Shown here: in pieces, positions 2,144 to 26,460 of the stretch | Layout: each line of letters begins with the position of its first letter | How positions within the stretch are numbered: position 1 is the first letter of the stretch | Assembly: GCA_000310025.1 (NCBI GenBank) | Contig: FN649737.1 | Span: 2,211,013 to 2,242,373 of the forward strand | Source of the DNA: Ectocarpus siliculosus | Taxonomy: Eukaryota > Sar > Phaeophyceae > Ectocarpales > Ectocarpaceae | Length of the DNA: 31,361 nucleotides | Direction of reading: 5' to 3' | Translations under genes and position numbers: made by a program | The notes under the pieces: model-generated | The model's input: only the letters and a program-made list of their open reading frames with translations | Databases searched by the model: none | What the model was told of the DNA's origin: nothing

Positions 2144-2413
2144 TGTTATGGGATTTGAATGTGTAAAGTACCAACCGTAGTGCGGGCAATGCCCAGAGGA
2201 AAGTGCGGGAGATGTAACTCCCGATTGAAGGATAAAGCAGGGGACAGGACCTTGGCAGCCCCTGTTAGAGGGAGCTGGTCTGCCCCCACATGCTCAGTCT
2301 ACCACAGAGAGCAAGCAATCAGCATGCACTGCTGTCCAAAGAGATGAATCAACAAGTGAGTCTTCACCAAGGAAGGGTCTTCAGGGATTGCTACGCGTGT
2401 CTATACCATTACA
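2144..2413 (+). repeat. 5' LTR (270 bp)
   Basis: It starts TGTTATGGG and ends CCATTACA, the TG...CA termini expected of LTRs. It aligns without gaps to 13386-13655. Differences lie at 2149 (T/G), 2176 (C/G), 2219 (T/G), 2349 (T/C) and 2383 (A/G): three transversions and two transitions. It should contain the element promoter and RNA start, but I see no convincing TATA box. A 62-codon open frame from 2159 is present in both copies; I do not call it a gene. Confidence 0.95.
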
Positions 2414-2415
2414 CT

Positions 2416-2433
2416 TGGCGTCGTCAGCAGGAC
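2416..2433 (+). promoter_or_regulatory. Candidate primer-binding site
   Basis: TGGCGTCGTCAGCAGGAC starts 2 bp after the 5' LTR. It begins with TGG, complementary to the CCA end of a tRNA, at the position expected for minus-strand priming. It is not the initiator-Met type (TGGTATCAGAGC) common in chromoviruses, and I cannot name the tRNA. Confidence 0.4.
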
Positions 2434-2779
2434 GAGCTAAACCTAAACCGACGACAACCACGGACTTCAAGCCCCCGAGACGATGGGAACTGAGCTACCT
2501 CTCTCTTTGCCGGCCGGGTGTTCGGCTGCTGCTGGAAGCGCGATTTCACGTACGAAGGAGGGACTGCCAGGAGGATGGGACGCCGCAGCCGGTGGTGTCT
2601 GATGAGCCTACGCTTGCAGTGCCTTTACTACCGGTGTGCTGGTGGAGTTCAATGTGGAGGGGCCTCTTGGGACAATTGGAACATGGCGCCAGCGGTGGAT
2701 TCCAGGTAAGTTGTGTCTTCACTCGTACATGCAGCTACAGATGATCCTGGAGTTTTTGTTTTTGGGGGATCGTTTTGTT
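2434..2779 (+). other. Retrotransposon leader (5' UTR)
   Basis: This stretch lies between the candidate primer-binding site and the first repetitive gag-side sequence. Several frames are open for 60-120 codons, but none shows a domain. The polyprotein start codon cannot be decided, because frame 1 and frame 2 both run into the repeat region. Confidence 0.4.
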
Positions 2780-3122
2780 CGGCTTCGGCCCCTACTTCGG
2801 CTTCGGCCTCTGTTGTGGCTTCGGTCTCTGCTTTGGCTTCGGCCTCTACTTTGGCTTCGGCATCTGCTTCGGGTTCGGCCCGCCCGTTTCTTCGGAAACC
2901 CGGGTTGCGTTTTCGAACCTTCCCCTGGCTTCGCCCCCCCCCGTTTCTTTGGAAACCCGGATTTTGTTTCCGAGACTTCCCCGGGCTTCGGCCCCCCCGT
3001 TTCTTCGGAAACCCTTGTTGCGTTTTCGAACCTTCCCCCGGCTTCGGCCCCCCCGTTTCTTCGGAAACTCGGGTTGCGTTTTCGAACCTTCCCCGTCTTC
3101 GGCCCCACCTGTTTCTTCGGAA
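2780..3122 (+). repeat. Tandem repeats in the N-terminal gag region
   Basis: About 90 bp of a short CTTCGGC-rich repeat (2780-2873) is followed by units of 55-57 bp starting at 2874, 2930, 2987, 3043 and 3098 (last one partial). Each begins TTCGGCCC and contains TTTCTTCGGAAAC and GTTTTCGAACCTTCCCC. In the best frames they encode Ser/Ala/Pro-rich sequence (SASAPTSASA, then PPVSSETRVAFSNLP-like units). Unit lengths not divisible by three shift the frame between copies, so the array is no longer one open frame. Confidence 0.8.
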
Positions 3123-3229
3123 ACTACTGCAACCCCTGTTTTTTTCTACCGCTCATCATGCTGTAGATTCAGGAGAAGTGCAGAACCCTGGGTTTTCGAA
3201 CTCACCCCTCTTCGGCGTTTGTACCACCT

Positions 3230-4248
3230 GTGCCGGGTGTTCCGCATGTTGTGTTGTCTTCGGACCATGCTTCCTCCGCTGCTTCGGTAGCTGCTGTCAC
3301 CCCCCCCGTTGTTATCGATGATCGTGTTTTGTCAATTTCTTCGAACATCGCACATGCTCGTCAAGCCTCGATAGATGCGACTGATGCTACTGCTCGTGCT
3401 GCTCATGCCAATACAATGCAACGCGAGTACATCACTTCTAACTTGAAAGTCGCTACCATGCCCCTTCCCACAACTCTGTTGCCGGGAGATGGCCATCAGC
3501 ACCTTATCCGCACAACACGCGCGGCCTTGTCCGACATTTTGTTGCTGCGTGATGAGAAGATTGCTGGGTTAACGGCTCTGATTTCGTTCGTGGATGGGAA
3601 CGTCCCCTCAAAAATATTTTTTTGAGTGCGATCACCCCTGACAAGCCCTCTACCTCCGACCTCGGTCTCTCCATTGCTGATTATTTTCAGCAAGTGGGCC
3701 GGAGCTTGGATGGTGGAGCCGCTGGGCCGGAAGCCTTTCAGCTGCTGTTGCGTCATCTTGCGGAGCAATTTGACGTCGGAGACCGTCAAGAGTCGTTATT
3801 GCGACCTCAACAATTTGGCGTAGCAGATGGTTCTTCTTTCGTGAACTACCTTCGTGCATTCCGTATGTTGGTTTCGTCTGTGACTGGCTCTGAACGTACG
3901 ATGGCTCCTAGTGTGTCCATGGTTCTAGAAATAGTGCGGCGTTCGGTCTGCAAGCAGTATTCGAGTCTTTCTCTGCTTTTGTACCCGGGTGCTCTGGCCA
4001 CGGCCGTCACTCCTTTTGGGTCGATGGCGGATATGTGGGAGGCGTTCGCGCCTTTAGCGACTAATATAACGCCGGCTATCGGTGGTTCATCTAATTTTGC
4101 GTTGTCTTCGACGCGTGGCTCTTCCCAGCCATGGCGGTCTAAACACCGCGCTCCAGCGCCTTCGGGCCAGTGGGCACCAGGTTCTGCACAGAACCCTGTA
4201 GTTTTGCCTGTACAATCTCACGATGGCGACCTCTTCACGCGAAACTGA
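3230..4248 (+). pseudogene. gag capsid-like region, frameshifted
   Basis: This is the likely structural Gag part, inferred from its position before a zinc knuckle and its helical, alanine-rich composition. Two frames carry it: frame 2 at 3230-3625 (with segments such as VVIDDRVLSISSNIAHARQA and LLLRDEKIAGLTALISFVDG) and frame 1 at 3622-4248 (SIADYFQQVGRSLDGG, then a hydrophilic C-terminal part). The change falls at a run of seven T (3617-3623) that creates TGA at 3623-3625. A one-base loss in the homopolymer is the simplest cause. A second change, from frame 1 to frame 2, lies at 4223-4248. Gag proteins diverge quickly and I recognise no specific capsid family. Confidence 0.6.
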
Positions 4249-4720
4249 AATTCTTGGCCCGCCTCGCAAGCCGATTGGTCTGATGTATTCGCCCTCGCTT
4301 CCAGTTTTCGTAACACAGACGACCGTTTTTTTTTTGTGGACTCCTTTGTTGACACAAGAGGCTCGCTCGCAAGCCTTCCGCGAAATCAGGAATCGCTGTC
4401 TGAACTGCTCGGGTGAAGACCGTTCCATGAAGCAATGCGCTGCGCCGTTCACAAATTCTAGTGGGTTGTTGAATCCCGATTTGGGTCTTCTCAATAACGA
4501 TTCTGCTGCTTTTAGGCGTTGGCAAGGCCGCATGAGGTCTTTCCGTCGAAAAATAGTCAGACGGCCGCAACAACAATCAGGGTAGACGCAACCAACGCTC
4601 TTCCTCTTGCTCCTCTAAGCGTCGAAATCACGCTCGGACTCGTCGTGTAGACGGTGTAGTTCTCCTCATAATCGCCCACCGCAGCAGTTATATAACAATG
4701 GCCACGCCCCGGGAAATTTT
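4223..4720 (+). pseudogene. Nucleocapsid region with altered zinc knuckle
   Basis: Frame 2 encodes RNRCLNCSGEDRSMKQCAAP at 4391-4450. This fits the retroviral zinc knuckle C-x2-C-x4-H-x4-C, with the cysteines at 4397, 4406 and 4436, but the histidine position (4421-4423) is CGT, arginine, one base from a His codon. The stretch after it (SGLLNPDLG) remains open. Downstream the basic, RNA-binding-like sequence moves to frame 3 near 4560 (GRRNQRSSSCSSKRRNHART), with a frame 2 stop at 4583-4585. Known function of the family: the knuckle packages element RNA in the particle. Here zinc binding is probably impaired. Confidence 0.65.
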
Positions 4721-6385
4721 GTGGGCAGCCGTCACACTACACAACGGACGTCAGGCAACACCCACCACACTGGTGCTTGTCCGTCTACCAACCACACCCG
4801 CATGCTCAAGTCGGTCCTTCTTCAGGCGTTATGGTTTCGACCTATCACACCGCTCGCCAGCCTGGTAATTTCCAACATGGTGGCCGTTCTCGCACTGGAT
4901 GACTCCTCGACGGTGGTTCACCCCCTTCCCTCGGACCGCCTCCAGCATCTTCGGGGACTTCGTCTTGTTCATCATAAGACGCGCGCGTGTCGAGCTCTGT
5001 TGCCTCTAACACCTCGGTGTTACGCAACACCAACACTACTTCGGTACATGTTGCTCCTTCACGCCCTGTTGCCTCTAATACTTCGGTGTTACGCAACACC
5101 AACACTACTTCGGTACATGTTGCTCCTTCACGCCCTACTGTTGCCTCTAATACTTCGGTTTTACGCAACACCAACGCTACTTCGGTACACGTTGTTCCCT
5201 CACACCCTGTTGCCTCTAGCACTTCGGTTCTATGCAACGATAACATCATCGGTGCCTGCTATCCCTACGCACTCTGATGCCTCTGGCATTGCGATGCCTC
5301 GCACTGACAACCATACTTCGGTACACGTTGTGTCTTCAAGTGTCGGTCAGGTCGGTATCCAGCGACATGCGCTCATCCCACCTCCACAATCGCACTTACC
5401 TTCTGCAACCCCTGCACCCTCGCCTCTTCGGACTAATGCTCCGTCGGAAACTAACCAGTCTGACGCGAGTGTTGTCTTGAGGTGCGGGAACAGGCCCGTA
5501 GGACCTTCGGGGCCATTGAGTGCCGCTCGCGTGACACCACTCATCCGCTCCCCCAGTCGTCTGCAGATAAGACCGGCTGTAGTCATAAACTTTTGGATGA
5601 TTGATGAGGAAACGCCTGAATTGGTTACTTCGGGTGAATCTTCGGACACGCTCAATTCGTCTGTGCTCGCTTCCGTCTAGGGTTCGCCCTCGATTGTTGC
5701 ACCGGTAGCTAACTTGACTGGTTCCGACCGGCAAGTTTCAGGGTCAAATTCATCTGGCTTCGAATCGCCTTGTTCCCCCGGTTCCGACCGCCGAATATCA
5801 TCAGGTTCCGCCACACGACATTTCGACCGTGGGTCGTCGTTGCACGATCCATCTCCTCCGACGCACGCTCGCCCAGAGGCACCTACTAATTGGACGCCGC
5901 GACCGACGTCGACAGTGTTGACACCACCGCTTCGGGAGGACGCCCCCGAAGTGACCTCCGAACAGCCGGAGGTCTCGCGTACCTCGTCACGGAGGAATGG
6001 CCAGGAGCACCACGCCTGGCTCAGTTATACTGACCCGGCCTCGGCCGCCGTTCCTAGCGAAAGCGACCTGTTGAATGACACCTTACGTGGCGTTTCTTCA
6101 GGTTTAGAATTGGGATGCACCCAGCATGATGTCGCTGGCCCAATTATTGCGAACAAACCGGCTTCGGTCAATTCTTCGCCGGTCTCTGACGTAGCCGAGA
6201 CCATCCACATGGATATCCATGCCGTCACACACAACACGAGCGTCCCGCTCGCTGCAGCTTCGGCTACACCAGCTTCGGCTGCCACCTCAGCTTCGGCTGA
6301 CAACACTCCGGGTGCTTCGGCTCCTGCAGCTCCGGCTGTTTTCGATCCGTCTACAGAGTATTGTACTCCTGACATAGGTTTCTTC
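4721..6385 (+). pseudogene. Ser/Thr/Pro-rich linker between gag and NADAR
   Basis: This is a long low-complexity region with no recognised fold. Around the 69-bp repeats the Ser/Thr-rich frame is frame 1; from about 5250 onwards it is frame 2, rich in Ser, Thr, Pro and Ala (for example ASATPASAATSASADNTPGA near 6260-6320). Stops interrupt frame 2 at 5678-5680 (TAG) and 6386-6388 (TGA). The frame 2 reading after 5681 runs straight into the NADAR domain, so the linker and NADAR were probably one polyprotein. Confidence 0.5.
4999..5240 (+). repeat. 69-bp in-frame tandem repeat
   Basis: Copies start at 4999, 5068, 5140 (after an extra ACT) and 5209 (partial). Each begins GTTGCCTCTAA and contains CTTCGGT and ACGCAACACCAAC. 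The unit is 23 codons and the first three copies keep frame 1, encoding VASNTSVLRNTNTTSVHV followed by a short Ala/Pro/Ser tail. Copies 1 and 2 are almost identical; copies 3 and 4 diverge. Confidence 0.9.
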
Positions 6386-6838
6386 TGAAAACCCTCCTCT
6401 TCTTTTTCTCAATGGACTCCTTCGACTTTTGTGGTTGATGGAGTTGTTTACTTGTGTGCTGAGCAGTTCTTCGCTGCGGAAACAGGTCGTCTGTTCGAAG
6501 ACCACAGCGCTTTACAGAACATCATGCGAGTGTCCGATCCTGCCTTACACGAGAAGTTTGGCCGCGAGGTTCGTGGTTTCGACCAACCTATTTGGGAACG
6601 AGAGCGTGAAAACACGGTGCTCACTGGCTCCTACGCAAAATTTAGTCAAAACTCCGAGTTTCGAGATCATCTCCTCGGATGTGGTGACCAAATCCTTGCC
6701 GAAGCCAGTCCCTACGACCGTATTTGGGGCATTGGCCTTCAGGCCGATGATCCTGATGCTCGCTCCACGTCTCGGTGGCGATGTCTCAATTTGTTGGGCA
6801 ACGCCCTGCAACGAGTTCGCCGTCTTTTACGACGCAGT
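6374..6838 (+). pseudogene. NADAR (YbiA-like) domain inside the retrotransposon
   Basis: The translation in frame 2 matches the NADAR family (formerly DUF1768; E. coli YbiA) along its length: FVVDGVVY, then AEQFFAAETGRLF with the conserved Glu at 6461-6463, a GREVRGFD segment, a W-x-R-E segment, LTGSYAKFSQN, then LAEASPYDRIWGIGL, and RWRCLNLLGNALQRVR at the end. About 145 residues is the usual size. Known members are N-glycosidases that cleave ADP-ribose-type or riboflavin-intermediate substrates. TGA at 6386-6388 interrupts the first strand, just before the SQWTPSTF segment, in the same frame as the upstream linker. Otherwise the core is open without frameshift. RWRC has Cys where family members often have Gly. 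It sits between gag/linker and protease, where no standard Ty3/gypsy domain belongs. Confidence 0.88.
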
Positions 6839-7059
6839 GCCCCGCCCCCCGAGCGCAGCTCTCATTTGCTGTCTACTACGAATCACATTCCGACGTCATC
6901 CCACCAGTGCCTCCGGACGGCCTCAAGCCCTCCGTCGACTGAACGATTTCCGTCGTTTTCACAATACGCTGCGAATGTTCCATCGGATCATGACACCGCT
7001 GCTTGGGCCGTGTCTTCCGGGTGCACCCCGCCATCCTCTTCCTCTTCTTGGCTTCCTGA

Positions 7060-8091
7060 GCAAGGCCCGGATTTGGTTGGTGCATCGATGATGACTCTTT
7101 CACCACCCCAATCCTCACTCACAGTGGTTCAGCTTCTGTTCAGTTTGGATGTGTTGCCCTTTTGGACACGGGTTCCCCGCAGTCATTTATTAGTGCATCT
7201 GCGTGGGAATCCATGAAAGCCGCTTCGGCCGCTTCGTCGTTGTCTGAGAAACAAACCCAACCTCGCTGTTGGGGTGGGTTCGACAAATCTGCGCCGCTTC
7301 AAACTTCGACTATGGTCCATTTGAGTGTCCAGTTCATCCGTAGGAGTCTTCCTACTTCCTCTTTCGCTGTTTGGGGGTATGTTGTTCCAGATGGTGTTAT
7401 GCATCATGACGTGCTCCTCGGGAGAGACAGTTGGATGCAGTTTAGCGACCGTTCTTACCGCACTTTGCGTGCGAAACGCCCTGGTGACCGTGTTTTTGGT
7501 GAGCTTACCCTGGCTCAGCATGGCAGTTGCGGTGCCACCGCTTTTGCTCACGATTTGTCTTCCACAGATGGTAACTACCAACTTCGCTATGCTGGGAAAC
7601 ATTCCGTCCAACTTCACCCCGAACATAGCCTTGTTCCGGTTAATTTGGTGCGCAGCGATGGCTCTCCAGCTCTCGTAGGTAACTATCTCGTGGATATGCT
7701 TCCACAATGTGCTATGTTTTCTTCCGAGGAACATTTTGTGCAAAATGGTTGCCAAAGACTCCTGCTCACGGGTATCTCTTCCCTCGAACTAGGCGGCATT
7801 CTGGGTACAGCTTCGGCTCCCCTTCTTCGCGTGCCTCTCAGTGCTGTGTCTCGCCACAGTTTGAGCGATGGTCTTCAATCTGCGGCTCAAGATCCCACCG
7901 TTGCTTCGGGCAACTGGGTTCCGGGTCCTGTTTCGACAGGTGGCATTGATTCGTCTGCCGAGCGTCGCATTGATGACCCCTTCGTGTATAATTTGCATGA
8001 GCGACCCACGCCGTCTCCACGCGGCAAAGTGACCTTTGTTCTGCCAGTGCTTCTCTTTCGTCGCCTCCGCCTGCTCTTCTCGAGCGGTTGA
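7060..8091 (+). pseudogene. Retrotransposon aspartic protease region
   Basis: Frame 1 from 7060 encodes a retropepsin-type protease: VQFGCVALLDTGSPQSFIS with catalytic Asp at 7165-7167, and the second conserved motif HHDVLLGRDSW near 7400-7435. Such enzymes work as dimers and cut the Gag-Pol polyprotein. The frame differs from NADAR (frame 2), and frame 1 has a stop at 7057-7059, so an indel lies in the linker 6840-7060. A further shift near 8030-8060 moves the reading to frame 3, where PPPALLERLTSEQRQSF leads into reverse transcriptase. Confidence 0.85.
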
Positions 8092-9601
8092 CGTCTGAAC
8101 AACGTCAGAGTTTTTCCCGCGTGTGGGATAAGCTCCCCTGCCATCTCCGTGAAATTTCTTTTGATCTCCATGGTCCGGGTTGGACTCTAGATGTCATCAC
8201 TCAGCTTGGTAACGTCCTGTGCGACTATCATGATGTCTTCTCGAGTTCCACCACCGACTTTGGATCTTGTTCGCTTTTTTCTTTCAAGCTTGTTCCCCCA
8301 GGCAGTGCACCCGTCACGTCTCGTCCATACCGCGTTAACCCCCCGGTGGCGAAACAAGTTGACGCGATCCCTGTTCAATATCTTGCGGCTGGTCTGATCC
8401 AACATTCGACCTCGCCCTACTCGAGCCCCTTGGTAGTCATAACAAAAAAATCTGGTGGTGTTCGCACCACTGTCAATTATCGCAAGCTCAACAAGCTTTG
8501 TGCTTTGAGCCAGCTTCCAATTCCTCGAGTTGATGATACTTTGGACAAGTTGTTAAAAGGGCGAATTTATTCCCTTTTTGATATGAAGTTTTCGTTCCAC
8601 CAAATCACGGTTCACCGTGACACAATCCCTTTGACAGCATTCGTGACGTCTTCCGGGCTTTTTGAGTGGTTGAAGATGCCTCAAGGCAGTTCTGCTGTCC
8701 CTGGGTGGTCTTGCAAGGTGGTCAATGAAGTCATCAAAAATCTCCACGGTGTTGCATCGTACTTGGATGATTTGATCGTTTTCGACGACAACCCTGCTTC
8801 TCATGTTGATACCATGCGCGCTCTGTTTGAACGTTTGCGTACACACAACTTGAAACTCACCTCACCGAAGGCCACCATTGGCGCTACCGAAGCGGACTTC
8901 CTCGGCCACACCATCTCTTCCGACGGTGTTCGGCCTAACGGGGCCAAGGTTGCGGCCCTCACCAAAATGCCCATGCCCAAGGATATTAGACAACTTTGCT
9001 CTCTTCTCGGCGGCCTCAGCTACTACCGCAAGTTCCTCCCCAACATGGCTACGCGAATTCGACCTCTGACCACTCTTCTCAAGAAGCAGGCGACGTTCGT
9101 CTTCACCCCTGCCAAGGAGCAAGCTGTTCGCGTCCTGCTGTCGGAGTTGGCCAGCCCTCCTATCTTGGTTTATTCGGATTGGGATGCCGTTCCGGACGTC
9201 TCGCGACCTTTTCGTCTCTACTGTGATGCTAGTCGCGATGGGTTCGGCGGGACTCTTTGGAGTAGAACAGCCGGATGGCTCCATCCGACCCATCGTTTTC
9301 ATCAGCCCAGCTACTTTGGACTCCCCTCGACCTCGAGGCGGGTAGCATCGTGTGATGTATCAAACGACTTCGCGGTTGTTTGTGGGGTACGAAATTTCGC
9401 ATTTGTACCGACCACAAATCTCTTGAGCATTTTGCCAAGGTGGGGGAGAACAATGCCCGCGTTCAGCGTTGGCTCGAATTTCATACCACCTACAATTACA
9501 CTCTAGAGTACCGCAAGGGTTCCGCAAATGGCAACGCTGATTTCCTCTCTCGCCTTCCGATCGATGCGGCGGAATGTGACGATCTGGTCGCAGCCGCTTG
9601 A
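8088..9601 (+). pseudogene. Reverse transcriptase and RNase H
   Basis: Frame 3 (8088 to about 9257) is an almost intact Ty3/gypsy reverse transcriptase: SPYSSPLVVITKKSGGVRT, then SLFDMKFSFHQI with the first catalytic Asp at 8580-8582, LKMPQGSS, and YLDDLIVF with the paired Asp at 8766-8771, followed by FLGHTISSDGV and SYYRKFLPNM. RNase H starts with RLYCDASRDG (Asp 9225-9227). It then suffers a +1 shift at about 9257 (to frame 1), a deletion with a shift near 9323 (to frame 2), and TGA at 9353-9355 where the family usually has Trp. The rest is readable in frame 2: TDHKSLEHFAKVG and NGNADFLSRLP, ending at 9601. The polymerase residues survive, but RNase H cannot be translated as one piece. Confidence 0.93.
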
Positions 9602-10480
9602 CACCGAATGACGATGAGGAGAGCGTGTTCTTCATCCGTTCTTGTGGCCTTACGCCTTCTGGCCATCGCGCCGTGGGTGTTGGCTTGGGTAGGCTCGTCC
9701 CCACTTCCCCGACTTCGGTCTTGGGTGGGCTGGCCCCCTCTACAGATGATTTCGTCGACTTCCGTCGGCATGGTCCACGTCTCTCGCCGTCAGGCCTTTC
9801 GTCTCCGCCTGGCATCTGGAACATCGCACCCTGGCCGTCCAAGAAACTCCGCGTGTTGTCTCCTTCGCGACTGAGTAAGCGGACCCTCGTTTGGTCTGGC
9901 TCCTTACACTCTTCGGTGGAGGACGTTATGGCTCTCGAGCCCGAGTCTTCGCTGGCCGTCTCACCGACTGCCGCATCACGCTCGACCCTACTCAAGTGAT
10001 TTTCACGCGGACTCGTCGCCGTACGGCGGTTGTGGCAGGCAAGCCCCTCCCGCCCTTAAATTATGGCTTCTCTGAGGACCCACCTGCTCCCACTCGGATT
10101 TCCGCTTCGCCCCGATCGTTTCGACGTTCTCCGCCCGCGCCTTCAGCATCGACTACGCCCCCCGTTTTGACCAGGTTGTTTTCGACTCCTGGTGCTGACG
10201 CTTCGATCCCGGACCTTCATACGCCTCTGGCTCGTGGAAGGGATCTTGCATCTTCGACGCATCCCGCAACTTCGGTGTCTCCTGCCCAGCAGTCTTCTGC
10301 TGTCCCCGATTCTTCGGAATCTCCGACGCGTTCGGTTTCAACCACTCGTACGCCTTCGTCTTCGGTTTCCGCTGCTACTCTGCCTTCGGGTGGATTGCAG
10401 TCGGAGTCTCATGTGTCGGCTCCCTCTTCTATCGAGGCGGCTTTACATTCTTCGGCAGATTTAGCCTTCCGGGCGTCTGT
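9602..10480 (+). pseudogene. Long Ser/Pro-rich spacer between RNase H and integrase
   Basis: From about 9891 frame 3 is open and continuous with the integrase zinc domain. It encodes a hydrophilic Ser/Thr/Pro sequence with many TCTTCGGT codon strings (SSESPTRSVSTTRTPSSSVS). No fold is recognised. The interval 9602-9890 has short open stretches in frames 1 and 2, and its true frame is uncertain. A spacer this long between RNase H and integrase is unusual for Ty3/gypsy elements. Confidence 0.55.
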
Positions 10481-12080
10481 CGAACGTTTCTCGCATGCTG
10501 ATTGGGCTCGCGAGCAACGTAACGAATCTGTTTGTGACGCAGCTATGCGTTTCATCCTTCTGGGTAGGCCTTCGGCTCTCCCTTCGGATTTCCTGGATCA
10601 TCTTCCGTCCGCTCGTCGACCTCCTCTGTCGGAGATCCGTGATCTGTCTCTCAAAGGCCGGTTACATGTTGACGATGATGGTTTGGTCTTGCTTGTTCGC
10701 AAGCAAACAGCGCCCCCGTCGTCTCCGACAACACGTCCTGGCGGGCGTGCTGCTCGCCTTCTCAACGACGAACCTCTTCGGATTTATGTTCCCATGTTCA
10801 TGCGTCCGTGGATCATGCAAGCCTGTCACGCTGATGCGTCCTGCCGCCTCGGTGCCGCTCGCACGCTTAGCATGCTGGAACGTTTCTATTGGTGGGTTGG
10901 CATGAGTGTTTGCACGAAGTGGTGGGTACGGCATTGTTTGCGATGCCAAGCCCGCAAATCATCTCGTTAAACTCCTCGATGGCCTACTTTGTGCCTTCCG
11001 CTGCCTTCGGGCCCTGGTGTGTCGGTGAGCGTCGATTATTTCGGTCCCCTCCCGTTGACACCGTGCGGAAACACATATATTCTGTTTTTCACAGATCGTT
11101 TCAGCCGCCGTGCTGATATGTACGCGGTTACGGCTGCGGAATTCACCGCCGAAGGCACCGCTGACGTCCTTGTCAACCGGCATATCCCTTTGTGGGGTTG
11201 CCCTTTGAGTGTTTTGTCTGATAATGGCTCTCAGTTTTGTTCTAAACTGTCGCAGGCTGTATACGCCCGTCTGGCTATCCGCAAAGTGGCTACCAGCTCT
11301 TACCATCCCAACGGCAATGGGGGTGTGGAGCGCATCAATCACACTATGGCTCAGATGTTGGCTATGGGCGTCACTGAGAGGCAAGATGATTAGGACATTC
11401 ATCTGCCGCACGTTGAGTTTGCCTACAACAATTCGGTTAATGCCGCTACTGGTTTGGCGCCCAACGAGGTGCATATGAACCGACTGCCACACATGCCGAT
11501 GGCGGTTTTTGAGCATCCATATGCTCGAGGCCACCAAAGCTTGCATCGCGATCAACTTGAGTATTGCGATCTTGCTGCTGATCGCCAACGTCATTCTTAC
11601 GATTTAGTTCGCGAACAGCACAACCTGTCCATTTCGCGGATTGAGCGGCGTAACTCCGCTCTATCGGATGCTTTGCGCAAGGTTCCCTCATACACCGTCG
11701 GTGGATGGGTTTGGGTGTACAACACCGAGTCTACCATTCGCCAAGGTGTTCGTTCAGGCACGGATGACAAGGTTCTCAAGGCCAAGTTGTCTTTCCTCTG
11801 GACTGGTCCGTTCAAGATTTTGGCCGTGGGTCCGTGTCCGGACGCCTCCGACGGTTGTCCTCTGGCTTCCAAGTTATTTTATGTGGATTTTCCATCAGAT
11901 CTGCCGGGTCCAGACTCGAAAAATCGTGTATCGGTTGCGCGTTGCAAGCCTTGCGCTGATCCACATGACACTGAAGACTTGCCTCGGTTCCTGCCTGCCG
12001 GCCTTACACCGTATGCGCTAAACTCCTATGAGAATAAATCTCCTCCCTACCATGTTACGGAAGACGACGTGTTGACTCCG
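10481..12080 (+). pseudogene. Integrase (zinc-binding domain and DDE core)
   Basis: The integrase is frame 3 throughout. The zinc domain reads ACHADASCRLGAARTLSMLE, then RFYWWVGM and RHCLRCQARK. The first His is at 10827-10829 and the Cys pair at 10935 and 10944, but the second His position (10845-10847) is CGC, Arg. The DDE core has VSVDYFGP (Asp 11034-11036), SDNGSQF (Asp 11220-11222) and GGVERINH (Glu 11328-11330), giving D-x35-E. Stops interrupt at 10968-10970 (TAA, after QARKSSR) and 11391-11393 (TAG, before DIHLPHVEFAYNN). After the core come a helical segment (11550-11700) and a beta-rich domain (VGGWVWVY ... LSFLWTGPFKIL), as in Ty3/gypsy integrases. Family role: inserts the DNA copy into chromatin. 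Confidence 0.93.
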
Positions 12081-12270
12081 GTCGAACGTCTCGAGGTTGA
12101 CCTCATTAGTGGCAATCAGTCTGTTCGTGGTCGTGGTGGCACAATCGCTGTTTTATACCAAACCCATTGGAAAGGTCTTCTTCGTCCTTCTTGGGAACGT
12201 GAGATGGACGTCCAGCATTCTAAGACCCACATTCTCCGGTACTGGACGGGTTCGCCTGATCAACACCGCC
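12081..12270 (+). pseudogene. C-terminal chromodomain-like module
   Basis: The frame 3 sequence begins VERLEVDLISGNQSVRGRGG, continues with AVLYQTHWKGLLRPSWEREM and ends HILRYWTGSPDQHR. The pattern of a three-strand sheet with HWKG and SWE followed by a helix matches retrotransposon chromodomains. The first cage aromatic (usually Tyr in YEVE) is Leu here, while the two Trp remain. In chromoviruses this module steers integration to particular chromatin. The segment itself has no stop or shift. Confidence 0.8.
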
Positions 12271-12564
12271 AAACGAATCGCCGCTATCGGGCGATGCTTA
12301 TTGGTGCGGCCACCCGGGAATGGCGCACGCTAATGGAGAGCGAGTTTCGTCTACGTCGTCCGCTTCTTGGACGACCCTGGACCTGTCAAGGTCGCCCTTC
12401 CTGATGTTCGCTACTCCACCGTCGAAACCGCCATCTCCGGATCCTGGTGCCTCCAAGCTCACAACGGCAGCGCCCTTTTCAAGGATATTCTTCGCAACAT
12501 CGACATGTCGCGTGGCGGCGTAGTGAAGGACTTGTTGCCCGATGACTTCGTGCGCACCCATTAA
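12271..12564 (+). pseudogene. Polyprotein C-terminal tail, frameshifted
   Basis: After the chromodomain the plausible reading moves from frame 3 to frame 1 near 12305-12345. Frame 1 then encodes FVYVVRFLDDPGPVKVALPD and GGVVKDLLPDDFVRTH, with a TAA at 12562-12564. Frame 3 stops at 12402-12404. The tail is hydrophilic and resembles no domain I know. It probably marks the true end of the polyprotein. Confidence 0.5.
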
Positions 12565-13385
12565 GATGGCATGCTTGGTTGTTTTTGCCTTCTGTTGCTC
12601 TTACAATAGGATTAGCGTGTTTTTTTTTCGTTTTCTCGTTTTCTTTCTTTTGGCTTCTATAGTCCGCCAGGTCGAACTTTCTCTGTTCCCTGCCGAGATT
12701 TTGCCAGCTATTGTTTGGGGTCGCGTCCCCTTTTCTTCTTTGCTTCGCTTCCGAAACATTTGGGTTCCGGCCTTTTTGGTACGTTGTGGTGCTTTTGTAC
12801 GTTTTCGACGTATTTTTGTCTCTACGCCTTCTCTTCTTAGAGTTTGCGGACTGTAGGTGTTTCGTGACCTTTGTTGTCGCTCCCACGCTACCGTGATGAT
12901 TGTTTGGCGTATCTTATCGTTTTGTCGATACAGGCCTTTTCACCGTTCCGACGACGTTCCTTTTTTTCGTCGTTTCGACGGCGTTAGTTTTTTTTTTTTC
13001 GTCGTTCCGACGACGTTCCTGTTTTTCGTCGTTCCGACAACGTTCGTTCCTCTTCGTCGCTCCGGCGTCGCTTATTTCTTCGTTTCTTTCGTGCCCTGTT
13101 TTCCCCTTTCTCTTAGGTTCCGACCTGTTATGGTATTTGTAGCCTTCGCCTGTTGCGGCTGTCCCGTTTGGTTCCTTTCTATTGTCCCACTTTGTTCCTT
13201 CCGGTACCTTCTTTTTTTTAGAGGTCAAACGATGGTCTTGCGACTCATCGAGTGAGAGGTGTGGGAGGGTGAATTGTGGTATTTTGGAGCTCCGCATCCT
13301 CGATACTTTCATTTGGAATTCGACAAGTAATTGTCAAGTTCCAAGATAGACGTATCTGCGTATGAGAACCTCCAGGGTGTGCTAG
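12565..13385 (+). other. Retrotransposon 3' non-coding region
   Basis: This is a T-rich stretch with no convincing coding frame. It carries the hairpin repeats at 12941-13070. The sequence directly before the 3' LTR (CCTCCAGGGTGTGCTAG) is not a clear polypurine tract. The best purine run is AGTGAGAGGTGTGGGAGGGT at 13251-13270, about 115 bp upstream of the LTR. Confidence 0.6.
12941..13070 (+). repeat. Hairpin-forming tandem repeat in 3' region
   Basis: Four to five imperfect units contain TCGTCGTTCCGACGACGTT, separated by T runs. CGTCG and CGACG within each unit are inverted, so each RNA copy could fold into a small stem. The last copies (CGTCGTTCCGACAACG and CGTCGCTCCGGCGTCG) vary while partly keeping pairing. 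Confidence 0.7.
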
Positions 13386-13655
13386 TGTTAGGGGATTTGA
13401 ATGTGTAAAGTACCAACGGTAGTGCGGGCAATGCCCAGAGGAAAGTGCGGGAGATGTAACGCCCGATTGAAGGATAAAGCAGGGGACAGGACCTTGGCAG
13501 CCCCTGTTAGAGGGAGCTGGTCTGCCCCCACATGCTCAGTCTACCACAGAGAGCAAGCAATCAGCATGCACTGCTGTCCAAAGAGATGAACCAACAAGTG
13601 AGTCTTCACCAAGGAAGGGTCTTCGGGGATTGCTACGCGTGTCTATACCATTACA
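13386..13655 (+). repeat. 3' LTR (270 bp)
   Basis: It starts TGTTAGGGG and ends CCATTACA, and matches the 5' LTR at 265 of 270 positions with no gaps. It should supply the polyadenylation signal of the element, but no canonical AATAAA is visible. Confidence 0.95.
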
Positions 13656-13659
13656 GTAC
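13656..13659. repeat. Target-site duplication, right copy (GTAC)
   Basis: GTAC follows the 3' LTR immediately and matches 2140-2143. GTAC is itself palindromic. Confidence 0.8.
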
Positions 13660-13789
13660 AGGTCTCAGAATGCTTGAACGGCGGCACTATGGAGGACGGA
13701 GGTGTCGTCGAGGCCTCCATCCAAGGAGCGCGAAAGCAAGAACCGTGGCCGTTGAAGCTTGGCTAGATACATGAAGGGGGTGGGTGGTG

Positions 13790-15222
13790 AAGGAACTGCC
13801 AGAGGCTTGTATCTCTTCATTTTCAATCTAGGTGCTTGAACGTCAGTTGTTCAGTAACCAGAGGCAGGACGTGGTCACACCATAACAAGAGGGGTAGTGC
13901 CAAACGTTTTATGTCCCTTCATTTTGACTCGAGCGGCTTGAGCGTCAGTTGTGCGGTAGGCAGAGGCAGGACGTGATGACTTCATAACAAGAGCGGTAGT
14001 GCCAATAGCTTTTGCCCCTTCATTTTCACTCTACGTGCTTGACCGCCAGTTGTCAGGTAGGCAGGACGTGATCCCTTCATAACAAGAGGTATAGCGTGCC
14101 AAACACTTGCGTCCATTTTTTTCATTCGAGCGGCTTGAGCATCGGTTGGTTGTGCTGTAGACAGAGGCAGGGCGTGATCACTTCATAACAAGAGGGGTAG
14201 TGCCAAACGAATGACCCTTCATTTCCACTCGAGGGGCTTGAGTTCAAGTTGTGTGTAAGACAGAGGCAGGACGTGATGACTGCATACCAAGAGGGGTAGC
14301 GCCAAACACGTCCGTCCCTTCATTTTCATTCGAGGGGCTTGAGCGTTCAGTTGTACTGCAGACAGAGGCAGGACGTGGTCACTTCATATCAAGAGCGTTG
14401 TGTTCCTTCGTTTTCACTCTAGGGGCTTGAGCGTCAAGTTGTACGGTAGACAGAGGCAGGACGTGGTCCCTTCGAAACATGAGCGGTAGTGCCAATCGCT
14501 TGTGCCCCTTCATTTTCAATCTACGTGCTTGCACGGTAGGCCGTTCAAAACAACGATGGGTAACGTGCCAAACACTTGTGTCCCTTCATTTTCACTCGAG
14601 GGGCTTGAGTGTCAGTTGGGTAGACGGAGGCAGGACGTGGACACTTCATAACAAGACGGGTAGTGGGCCAAACGCTTGTGTCCCTCCATTTTCACTCGAG
14701 CGGCTTGAGCGTCAGTTGTGCGGTAGGCAGAGGAAGGACGTGGTCACTTCACAACAAGAGCGGTAGCGCCAAACGCTTGTGTCCCTCCATATTCACTCGA
14801 GCGGGTGGAGCATCAGTTGTGTGGTAGACAGAGGCAGGACGTGATGACTTCATAACAAGAGCGGTAGTGTGTCCCTTCATTTTCACTCGAGCGGCTTGAG
14901 TGTCAGTTGTGTGGTAGACAGAGGCAGGACGTGATCCCTTCATAACAAGAGGGGTAGCGTGCCAAACGCTGGTGTCCCTTCATTTTCCCTCGAGTGGCTT
15001 GAACGTCAGTTGTGTGGTAGACAGAGGCAGGACGTGGTCACTTCATAACAAGAGGGGTATTGCCAAACGAATGACCCTCCATTTTCCCTCGAGCGGCTTG
15101 AGCGTCAGTTGCGCGGTAGACAGAGGCAAGACGTGATCCATTCATAACAAGGGCGGTAGTGGCAAACGCCTGCGTCCTTCATTATCACTCGAGGGGTTTG
15201 AACGCCGGTTGTACGGTAGACC
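13790..15222. repeat. ~102-bp satellite array, about 14 copies
   Basis: A unit containing CTTCATAACAAGAG, then GGTAGTGCCAAACG, CCCTTCATTTTCACTCGAG, GGCTTGAGCGTCAGTTGTG and AGACAGAGGCAGGACGTG recurs. The CATAACAAG motif falls near 13881, 13983, 14078, 14183, 14283, 14385, 14473, 14547, 14647, 14749, 14851, 14941, 15043 and 15142. Spacing is mostly 99-105 bp, with shorter copies (74-95 bp) carrying internal deletions. Copies are diverged, and short open frames inside on both strands are by-products of the repeat. Confidence 0.95.
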
Positions 15223-17404: not shown

Positions 17405-17720
17405 ATCGTGATCATGATCGGGTCACAGTTATGTCCCGATCATGACCCGATCATGGTAATAATTTCGGTTATGACCCGGTCATGACTCGGTCATGATCCT
17501 GACTAGGCTCTCAGTGACCGGATCATGACCGGATCATGACCGAGTCATGACCGGGCCATGACTTCGTTTGTTGTTTCTCACTTTCGCAGGAATTTTCGCC
17601 CTGACTGCTGGGTCATTACCCGATCATGATCTAGCCATGGCCGAGTCGTGATTGTGTCATTGTGTCATGACTGGGTCACGGTAAATGCACCATGACCGAG
17701 ACATGATCTTGTCATCACCC
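17405..17720. repeat. Palindromic TCATGA-rich repeat array 1
   Basis: There are many copies of a motif of about 11-13 bp, GGTCATGACCG with variants (ACCGGATCATG, CCCGATCATGA, CGAGTCATGAC). The core TCATGA is its own reverse complement, so the array reads nearly alike on both strands. Copies are interspersed with unique sequence near 17560-17610. Confidence 0.85.
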
Positions 17721-17919
17721 AGCCGGTCTGTCTAAGGATATATTGCATCAACGCCAGCCCTCTAGCGGCACCCCCACCTAGAACTTATCCACGCAGCGTC
17801 ACCCTACCACCTATCGTGTGGGTTCGGGGTTAGGATTGGGGTTGATGCAAGCGTTTCAAGCCGGTTTCATGCCCCTGCCAAACCACATAATCTGTTGTTA
17901 AGGAGAACCAGAATTGCAT
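17721..17919. other. Unique spacer between palindromic arrays
   Basis: No gene or known repeat is seen. It includes GTTCGGGGTTAGGATTGGGG at about 17821-17840, which looks loosely telomere-like but is not repeated. Confidence 0.4.
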
Positions 17920-18068
17920 TAGTCATGACCGAGTCATGAACTGGCCATGACTCGGTCATGGCTTAGCCATGACCAGGTCGTGACCGAAACATGACCGAGG
18001 CATAACTTCGGTCATGATCGAGATCATGACTCCATCTCGAAGACTTGGTCATTACCCGATCATGACCA
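17920..18068. repeat. Palindromic TCATGA-rich repeat array 2
   Basis: The motif is the same as in the array at 17405, with copies such as TCATGACCGAGTCATGA, CCATGACTCGGTCATGG and GATCATGACC. It ends against the TGTTGTTG tail at 18076. Confidence 0.8.
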
Positions 18069-18075
18069 AGAACAT

Positions 18076-18126
18076 GTTGTTGTTGTTGTTGTCTTCACAT
18101 TAAAAACCGTTCCGATCTCTCTCTAC
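18076..18126 (-). repeat. Non-LTR element 3'-end remnant with GTT tail
   Basis: Read on the minus strand, this is GTAGAGAGAGATCGGAACGG, then TTTTTAATGTGAAGAC, followed by about five AAC units. The same 36 bp with a longer AAC tail occurs in the opposite orientation at 26399-26460. A conserved short 3' end plus a simple-repeat tail is typical of LINE or SINE ends. The sequence to its right (its 5' side) does not match the other copy, so the shared part is only the 3' tip. Confidence 0.7.
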
Positions 18127-18554
18127 CCAGTACCTTCGTATGTCCGTACTGATCCAACACTCGACGCGGTCGATTCCCGTGGTCACAGGCTGTTAACTAA
18201 CCCTAAAAAGTTACACTCAAATAAACTGGCCCCGAGGGGTCCGCAAGTCAATAGAAATCAACGACAGATATTCTGGAATCCTCCACTCCCTCTGCGCGCT
18301 ATGCGAGGTACTAGGAGTCACTATCATGGGCCGGAGAAAAAGGGGTACGTCCCCTGGTTCAATCTTGGTACTTCACAACGCAAGCAGAGACAAGGCCATC
18401 TGGCACAGAAAAAAAGAGAAAAAAAGAGAGAAAAAGAGAAAAAATAAAAAAATGTCAACAGTAAGAAAAAATAAAATGAAAATAAAATGAAAAGGAGCGA
18501 GGACACAAAGGGACCAGGCCGAAATAACAAGAAATAAGAGGCAGAAACAGGGTC
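18127..18554. other. No gene; A-rich tract
   Basis: Unique sequence is followed by an A/G-rich tract at 18408-18500 (AAAAAAAGAGAAAAAAAGAG and similar, then AAAATAAAATGAAAATAAAA). A minus-strand Phe/Leu-rich open frame across it is simply the translation of the T-rich complement. Confidence 0.6.
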
Positions 18555-18640
18555 GTGATCAGGTAATGACCGTCATAACCGATTCATGATCGGGTCATGA
18601 CCGAGTGATGGTCGGGTCATGATTCAGTCACAATCAAAAA
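18555..18640. repeat. Palindromic TCATGA-rich repeat array 3
   Basis: A short array of the same motif (GTCGTGATCAGGTAATGACC, GGGTCATGACCGAGTGATGG) lies 43 bp beyond the stop codon of the minus-strand transporter gene, probably in its 3' untranslated region or just after it. Confidence 0.7.
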
Positions 18641-26398: not shown

Positions 26399-26460
26399 GT
26401 AGAGAGAGATCGGAACGGTTTTTAATGTGAAGACAACAACAACAACAACAACAACAACAA
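26399..26460 (+). repeat. Non-LTR element 3'-end remnant with AAC tail
   Basis: GTAGAGAGAGATCGGAACGG, then TTTTTAATGTGAAGAC, are followed by eight to nine AAC units. It is the inverted counterpart of 18076-18126. Upstream sequence has no reverse transcriptase motifs, so this is a severely 5'-truncated insertion or a SINE-like end. Confidence 0.7.

Follow-up and report, generated by a model that had tools for sequence, protein, structure and literature searches.

A conserved YbiA-type NADAR domain in the Pol of an Ectocarpus Ty3/gypsy lineage and its possible role as a packaged ADP-ribose hydrolase

A degenerate Ty3/gypsy element in the window

The window, a 31,361-nucleotide stretch of Ectocarpus siliculosus DNA, harbours at 2144-13655 an LTR retrotransposon of the Ty3/gypsy type, 11.5 kb long with TG...CA ends and flanked by the target-site duplication GTAC (left copy 2140-2143, right copy 13656-13659). 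Comparison of the LTRs placed the 5′ LTR (270 bp, likewise TG...CA) at 2144-2413 and the 3′ LTR at 13386-13655; the pair is identical at 265 of 270 positions, with 5 differences. A putative primer binding site starting with TGG was assigned at 2416-2433 from its position 2 bases past the 5′ LTR. The LTRs, this site and all coding features of the element lie on the forward strand. A gag zinc knuckle of the form C-x2-C-x4-R-x4-C was recognised by eye at 4397-4438, with Arg at the place of the His of Ectocarpus P0001, and the gag frames are interrupted. At the gag/pol boundary, a UGA-C (4900-4902) is the counterpart of a context found in six subfamilies of the element. It is followed by a poorly conserved Pol linker (5681-6385), the last codons of which, from about 6365 on, form by alignment the start of a NADAR unit. 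An in-frame TGA at 6386-6388 then occupies a position where locus L002 and other aligned copies have Trp.

The NADAR domain itself, of the YbiA type, extends from 6389 to 6841. Pfam profile PF08719 matched the translation of window:6389-7213 (+) over residues 2-148 and profile positions 9-163 of 163, with 141.1 bits (E = 5.2e-41) against a curated cut-off of 35.1 bits, and the same profile scored 149.0-156.9 bits in the related loci L039-L043. The NCBIfam model TIGR02464, a riboflavin-intermediate N-glycosidase, gave 149.1 bits against a cut-off of 73.7. Matches in the PDB were 8bau_A, a NADAR (E = 4.8e-15), and 2b3w_A, YbiA (E = 2.7e-7). The initial annotation had proposed, from the letters of the DNA, a NADAR captured on the coding strand of a retroelement between the gag/linker region and the protease, and had suggested a search with PF08719; both the profile match and the aspartic protease motif LLDTG at 7159-7173 bear this out. 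Its further claim that the domain shares the frame of the preceding linker holds in that the two are in one frame across 5681-6388, but that frame is interrupted by the TGA at 6386-6388.

The protease is recognised by its motif, the Pfam match being weak (E = 0.14), and LLDTG or LLDSG was present in all four relatives compared. Downstream of it lie a reverse transcriptase (RT; RVT_1, 8439-8915, E = 3.2e-22), an RNase H found by Pfam and open reading frames at 9102-9481 and split over two reading frames in this copy, an integrase zinc-binding domain H2C2 (10791-10964, E = 3.3e-11) and an integrase core rve (11013-11309, E = 3.7e-10). The Ty3/gypsy order PR-RT-RH-INT is thus present, with PR identified by motif in four of four representatives, where Pfam matches are weak. 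Assignment to the Gypsy lineage is taken from the passages of PMC12477816 on these elements. A Pfam search of the C-terminal part of the window Pol gave no chromodomain match, and in the relative P0133 PF00385 appeared at E = 0.042.

The window copy is a dead, degenerate element. In addition to the TGA in the NADAR, its reading frame changes in the linker, after the NADAR and in RNase H, and one catalytic residue has been replaced. Residue offsets to the published NADAR of Phytophthora nicotianae (PMC11543638, from the part describing its active site) place the equivalent of Glu E43 at 6461-6463, and alignment places that of E125, the catalytic Glu of the YbiA subfamily, at 6701-6703. The position of the catalytic Lys, K50, reads ACA (Thr) at 6482-6484, so that the domain would probably be inactive even without the stop.

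Several further features were observed in the window. A diverged array of repeats of about 100 bp (13750-15200) lies directly past the right end of the element, and many copies of a TCATGACC-type unit occur at 11-bp spacing in 17463-18633. An inverted repeat of 52 nt, 100% complementary, is formed by 18075-18126 and 26399-26450, 8.3 kb apart, and the reverse-strand ORFs between its arms resemble, by eye, a membrane transporter.

Occurrence, selection and origin of the element NADARs

The genome (189.5 Mb in 492 contigs) was searched with both the window NADAR and the PF08719 model, which each gave at least 150 matches (the best 150 of 250 and of 230 candidates, respectively). Of the 150 listed NADAR matches, 23 lay in uninterrupted frames 2,000 aa or longer; one of these frames, of 10,887 aa, may contain a run of N, and open frames with NADAR reach 2,580 aa. 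The RT of the family was represented by 115 matches, from the best 114 of 626 candidates with one element counted twice, and 104 of them had a NADAR on the same strand no more than 6 kb upstream. The distance between the two was about 1.6 kb in 80 of these 104 cases and ranged from 0.65 to 2.7 kb. Other family copies with the NADAR at this position, for which the initial annotation had asked, are therefore plentiful, and the at least 150 matches at a fixed place in the family rule out that the window alone received an inserted host gene.

No NADAR was listed for the remaining 11 of the 115 RT loci. We inspected the upstream region of six of them, leaving aside C396 (a contig end), C8, C41, C3 and C19, and none of the six had lost the NADAR alone. 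At C43 the NADAR is present in pieces. At C26 (L052) LTR-like sequence is joined straight to the region past the NADAR, which indicates that gag and NADAR are missing together. Only 94 and 30 residues are kept beside the RT at C92 near 58 kb and at C11, and no protease or NADAR match was found within about 3 kb at C92 near 97 kb or at C16; at four of the six loci the protease region is thus largely or wholly missing as well. An active NADAR-free family at C26 was considered and rejected, as none of the other 40 matches listed (the best 40 of 206) extends over the L052 junction by more than 4 bases.

The low NADAR protein scores of L044 and L045 (89.0 and 86.1 bits) raised the possibility of exchange between subfamilies, which was ruled out at the DNA level. 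All 150-base windows of L044 show 95-100% identity to L040, and beyond about 1.8 kb L045 and L043 agree at 95.6%. Local frame changes explain these scores. Similarly, L051 (G000:C15:1557700-1561200) was rejected as a host NADAR gene, as it is a further old element that retains pieces of NADAR, PR and RT. It belongs to an older, separate lineage of NADAR elements, its closest relative being P0003 (46% over 397 PR-RT residues), and has a stretch of N upstream of the NADAR.

Six subfamilies, A to F, were represented by L040, L041, L042, L046, L039 and L043, respectively. Identity among these representatives was 53-79% for the NADAR and 59-89% for RT-RNase H. By Nei-Gojobori counts, the 15 representative pairs gave for the NADAR pS values of 0.70-0.88, at which synonymous sites are saturated, and pN values of 0.15-0.36; pN for RT-RNase H among the same representatives was 0.08-0.28. 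Since every one of the 15 pairs has a pN much lower than its pS, the past constraint at which the readable core of the window NADAR had hinted is upheld and, judged from these counts, the NADAR has been under purifying selection between subfamilies. For closer pairs, dN and dS of the NADAR were 0.072 and 0.41 for L040-L002 (dN/dS about 0.18), 0.011 and 0.10 for L039-L031, 0.014 and 0.09 for L043-L035, 0.020 and 0.07 for L043-L025, 0.016 and 0.04 for L046-L016, and 0.023 and 0.04 for L025-L023. The youngest pairs show weaker constraint, which would be expected if copies drift once inserted. Mean pairwise identity along four Pol frames was 0.44-0.66 in the NADAR and 0.63-0.81 in the RT core, against 0.10-0.30 for the N-terminal linker, 0.33 immediately past the NADAR and 0.06-0.27 before the integrase. 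In the otherwise variable linker, an SQD-x-R motif stands at residue 23-24 of Pol after the UGA in all four aligned frames and is perhaps a protease cleavage site.

Protein trees of NADAR and RT from the six representatives have identical topology, with one NADAR node supported at 53% and the others at 90 and 100. In a codon-model tree of the NADAR, L046 joins L039/L043, unlike in the RT tree. This conflict concerns the poorly supported node of the protein tree, so the agreement between NADAR and RT rests on the well-supported nodes. The broken state of the window copy would be expected had the element merely picked up, once or passively, a functionless fragment of a host gene. Such a capture is highly improbable; it is refuted by the purifying selection, by the agreement of the NADAR protein tree with that of the RT, and by the at least 150 matches, which occupy one position in several subfamilies.

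Database proteins combining NADAR and RT were found in Ectocarpus sp. CCAP 1310/34, namely P0001 (95% over the NADAR), P0002 (91%) and P0131 (91%), and further Pol-type proteins of this kind were P0003-P0006, P0132 and P0133 (ENA, Logan, NCBI and EukProt entries). A protein search with the L042 NADAR returned 1,897 proteins; those named among the best 120 include proteins of Nannocystis and other bacteria and of Chrysoparadoxa, together with two brown-algal proteins. Scytosiphon promiscuus P0020 and Pylaiella littoralis P0031 are stand-alone NADARs of some 250 aa whose N-terminus is rich in Cys and His. With P0031 as the query, no host NADAR gene was found in the genome among the best 150 of 265 candidates in a six-frame search that ignored introns. 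A tree of 61 NADAR rows left the backbone open, the 13 element rows forming one group in 16% of bootstrap trees. After removal of four long rows, the resulting 57-row tree grouped 17 rows (the 13 element rows and four fragments added after the first tree) at 79/5, and these 17 with the Scytosiphon and Pylaiella NADARs at 94/81; adding Chrysoparadoxa to that group was not rejected (p-AU 0.312). A brown-algal host is thus a possible donor of the domain, as far as these trees can indicate.

The metagenomic proteins P0008, P0010 and P0134 carry a NADAR followed by a common region of 482-815 aa (identity 24-29%, E-values from 2e-28 to 1e-35) in which the motifs YTDD/YCDD resemble those of RT. A cytosine methylase is additionally present in P0134, and an FHA domain and a weak AN1 match in P0008. 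Pfam searches of the three found no RT, and the match to a Gypsy RT profile was weak (E = 0.035, probability 1.5%). They may possibly represent an independent association of NADAR with retroelements; methylase-bearing DIRS elements exist in protists, and this association recalls them. Another metagenomic protein, P0009, is a further possible retroelement with a NADAR, to judge from its YLDD motif and a weak match to RNase H (E = 0.046).

Active site, gag/pol boundary and proposed function

In order to examine the active site across the family, the residue numbers of the P. nicotianae NADAR-ADP-ribose structure, as given in the structural part of PMC11543638, were mapped by alignment offset and not by structure. 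The 46 stop-free NADAR rows included 8 second reads of the same place, leaving 38 distinct loci, which come mostly from the best-scoring matches and are therefore biased towards conserved copies. Among these, the equivalents of E43, E125, D130 and W133 were present in 38/38 and that of K50 in 37/38, the exception being L002 with Thr. G78, R79, W89 and R93 had their equivalents in 36 loci and K75 in 35; the exceptions besides L002 were L044 and L045, in both of which part of the NADAR is out of frame. The counterpart of Y84 is Phe in 36 of the 38, and the D86 position is variable. According to the sections of PMC11543638 on this site, E43, K50, R79, W89, R93, E125, D130 and W133 bind ADP-ribose or matter for the de-ADP-ribosylation of guanine. 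The position of E125 separates the subfamilies, with Glu in YbiA, Asp in BC4488 and His in phage NADARs (PMC11125620 and PMC11543638, in their passages on classification). With Glu there at all 38 loci, the element NADARs fall with YbiA and not with BC4488, the DarT-linked antitoxin; the genome also gave no PF14487 match.

It is possible, though we do not favour it, that catalysis is unimportant and that Pol keeps the NADAR fold to bind nucleic acid or ADP-ribose or as a structural part, with a role in the processing of RNA, in packaging or in the processivity of RT. Processing of RNA intermediates was suggested by Dinatale et al. in their passage on this fusion (PMC12477816), and PMC11125620 mentions a nematode protein, with three such domains, that has been linked to trans-splicing. 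The Lys to Thr change shared by the window copy and L002, which probably means a dead NADAR at two loci, would also fit such a role. Against it stands the retention of the catalytic residues in 37-38 of 38 loci across six subfamilies, since a purely structural module would not need all of them.

The gag/pol boundary suggests how the domain could be expressed. A UGA followed by C is a leaky stop context. This pattern, which was chosen after inspection of the first contexts, occurs at the boundary in 24 of 42 distinct loci and in all subfamilies A-F, B being represented by 1 locus and D by 2; in 19 of the 42 it is the first in-frame stop upstream of the NADAR. The contexts are GGA-UGA-CUC in A and D, AAC-UGA-CUC in B, AAC-UGA-CAG in C, AAA-UGA-CUU or CAU in E and AAC-UGA-CAC in F, with GG(C/U)GG or GACGG shortly 3′ of the boundary UGA-C. 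The 18 loci without it include frameshifted or 5′-disrupted copies, the F representative L043, and L045, where a UGA-C is present but lies outside the NADAR frame. An open gag in the same frame directly upstream of the UGA was found in L039, L040, L042, L044 and L045, and gag is shifted in L041. RNA folding 3′ of the UGA was not unusually stable in five of the six subfamilies and showed nothing consistent (z-scores -0.25, 0.12, 1.06, 0.73, -2.3 and 0.0). Given UGA-C loci in all six subfamilies, the NADAR is probably made only by readthrough. We infer that it is probably produced only within a readthrough Gag-Pol and packaged; as part of Gag-Pol, it would enter the virus-like particle at Gag-Pol stoichiometry.

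Based on the above, we propose, with a probability of about 0.5, that this Ty3/gypsy lineage carries a YbiA-type NADAR fixed in its Pol as a readthrough-packaged N-glycosidase that clears ADP-ribose from the element. Occasional readthrough of the boundary UGA would yield Gag-Pol including the NADAR, which within the particle would remove ADP-ribose, with guanine bases in the element RNA or cDNA as the most likely target and element proteins as the alternative. Reverse transcription would thereby be protected from host or incidental ADP-ribosylation. YbiA-type NADARs are reported to take ADP-ribose off guanine (PMC11543638 and PMC11125620, in their accounts of substrates). The removal of ADP-ribose marks suggested by the initial annotation would thus fit this reported activity as well as the conservation of the active site, and the interpretation given in that annotation is supported overall.

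Instead of nucleic acid of the element, the NADAR might cleave reactive riboflavin-pathway intermediates or free NAD or ADP-ribose derivatives, altering host metabolism or immune signals. The TIGR02464 score above cut-off would agree with this, as would the argument of a survey in Viruses (2022) that the main substrates of phage NADARs are soluble derivatives of ADP-ribose; the same survey, in its discussion of substrates, argues that the NADARs of eukaryotic RNA viruses primarily target macromolecular ADP-ribosylation (PMC9503650). Fusion into Pol would, moreover, point to a role inside the particle, and we consider action on small molecules unlikely.

Proteins of ADP-ribosylation that could oppose the proposed hydrolase or belong with it were sought in the genome with searches that did not handle introns and whose controls, where they matched for DarT, Tpt1 and macro domains, were prokaryotes only. 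No match was found for DarT (PF14487; control matched in 1/14 genomes) or Tpt1/KptA (control 3/14). PARP gave only four short pieces, two with internal stops (control 0/14), and the macro domain one piece of 35 residues (control 8/14). With no DarT or Tpt1/KptA match and PARP only in pieces, no nucleic-acid ADP-ribosyltransferase was identified as an opponent, which speaks against the proposal, as does the riboflavin-intermediate assignment by TIGR02464. A wider and tentative idea is that brown algae restrict retrotransposons by ADP-ribosylation of their RNA, cDNA or particle proteins, that this Gypsy lineage counters with a packaged hydrolase of guanine-linked ADP-ribose acquired from a NADAR gene of a brown-algal host, and that other retroelements (P0008, P0010, P0134) have independently done likewise. 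A catalytic ADP-ribose hydrolase retained by selection while the lineage diverged would, if real, suggest that ADP-ribosylation is an unrecognised layer of eukaryotic transposon control. The conserved UGA context and six diverged natural versions of the domain make the proposal testable with isolated domains and reporters.

Comparison with known systems

The NADAR-Gypsy fusion of Ectocarpus was published by Dinatale et al. (Genome Biology, 29 September 2025; PMC12477816), and the fusion itself is therefore already known. Among the matches listed in a literature search on NADAR or YbiA with retrotransposons or brown algae, titles and abstract openings held no second report of it. Every family of their Gypsy-12_Ec32 lineage has, like the element described here, a Gypsy Pol with a NADAR in the N-terminal region; the likeness is drawn from the published description of that lineage. 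Gypsy-12_Ec32 is also the authors' example of a putative C-terminal chromodomain. The passages of PMC12477816 on the fusion make no mention of readthrough, dN/dS, an active-site tally or co-descent of RT and NADAR. Relative to those passages, the additions of the present work are the readthrough context, the selection analysis, the active-site tally, the common descent of NADAR and RT, and a tree that links the domain, with weak support, to brown-algal host NADARs. The two accounts differ on the donor: these passages suggest possible horizontal transfer from bacteria, with blastp hits almost exclusively bacterial, whereas one tree here leans weakly towards brown-algal host NADARs.

The NADAR antitoxins associated with DarT1 (BC4488) have the fold predicted for the element domain and, as published, the activity proposed for it, hydrolysis of guanine-linked ADP-ribose. 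They differ in having Asp for Glu at the subfamily position, and the genome analysed here is without a DarT match. The NADAR of P. nicotianae (8bau, by molecule name) shares with the elements Glu at E125, as in YbiA, together with E43, K50, D130 and W133, and hydrolyses guanine-linked ADP-ribose according to the biochemical part of PMC11543638, a paper in the text of which 'retro' has 0 occurrences; unlike that protein, the elements vary at the D86 position and mostly have Phe for Y84 (36/38). Another retrotransposon-borne NADAR is that in ORF1 of a Tx1 LINE of the Pacific oyster, which by its description in PMC12477816 is divergent and belongs to a non-LTR element and a different ORF. The NADARs of nidoviruses, hepe-like viruses and picornaviruses belong to positive-strand RNA viruses with another replication cycle but, according to the survey's section on these viruses (PMC9503650), tend like the element NADAR to sit in a polyprotein with the polymerase.
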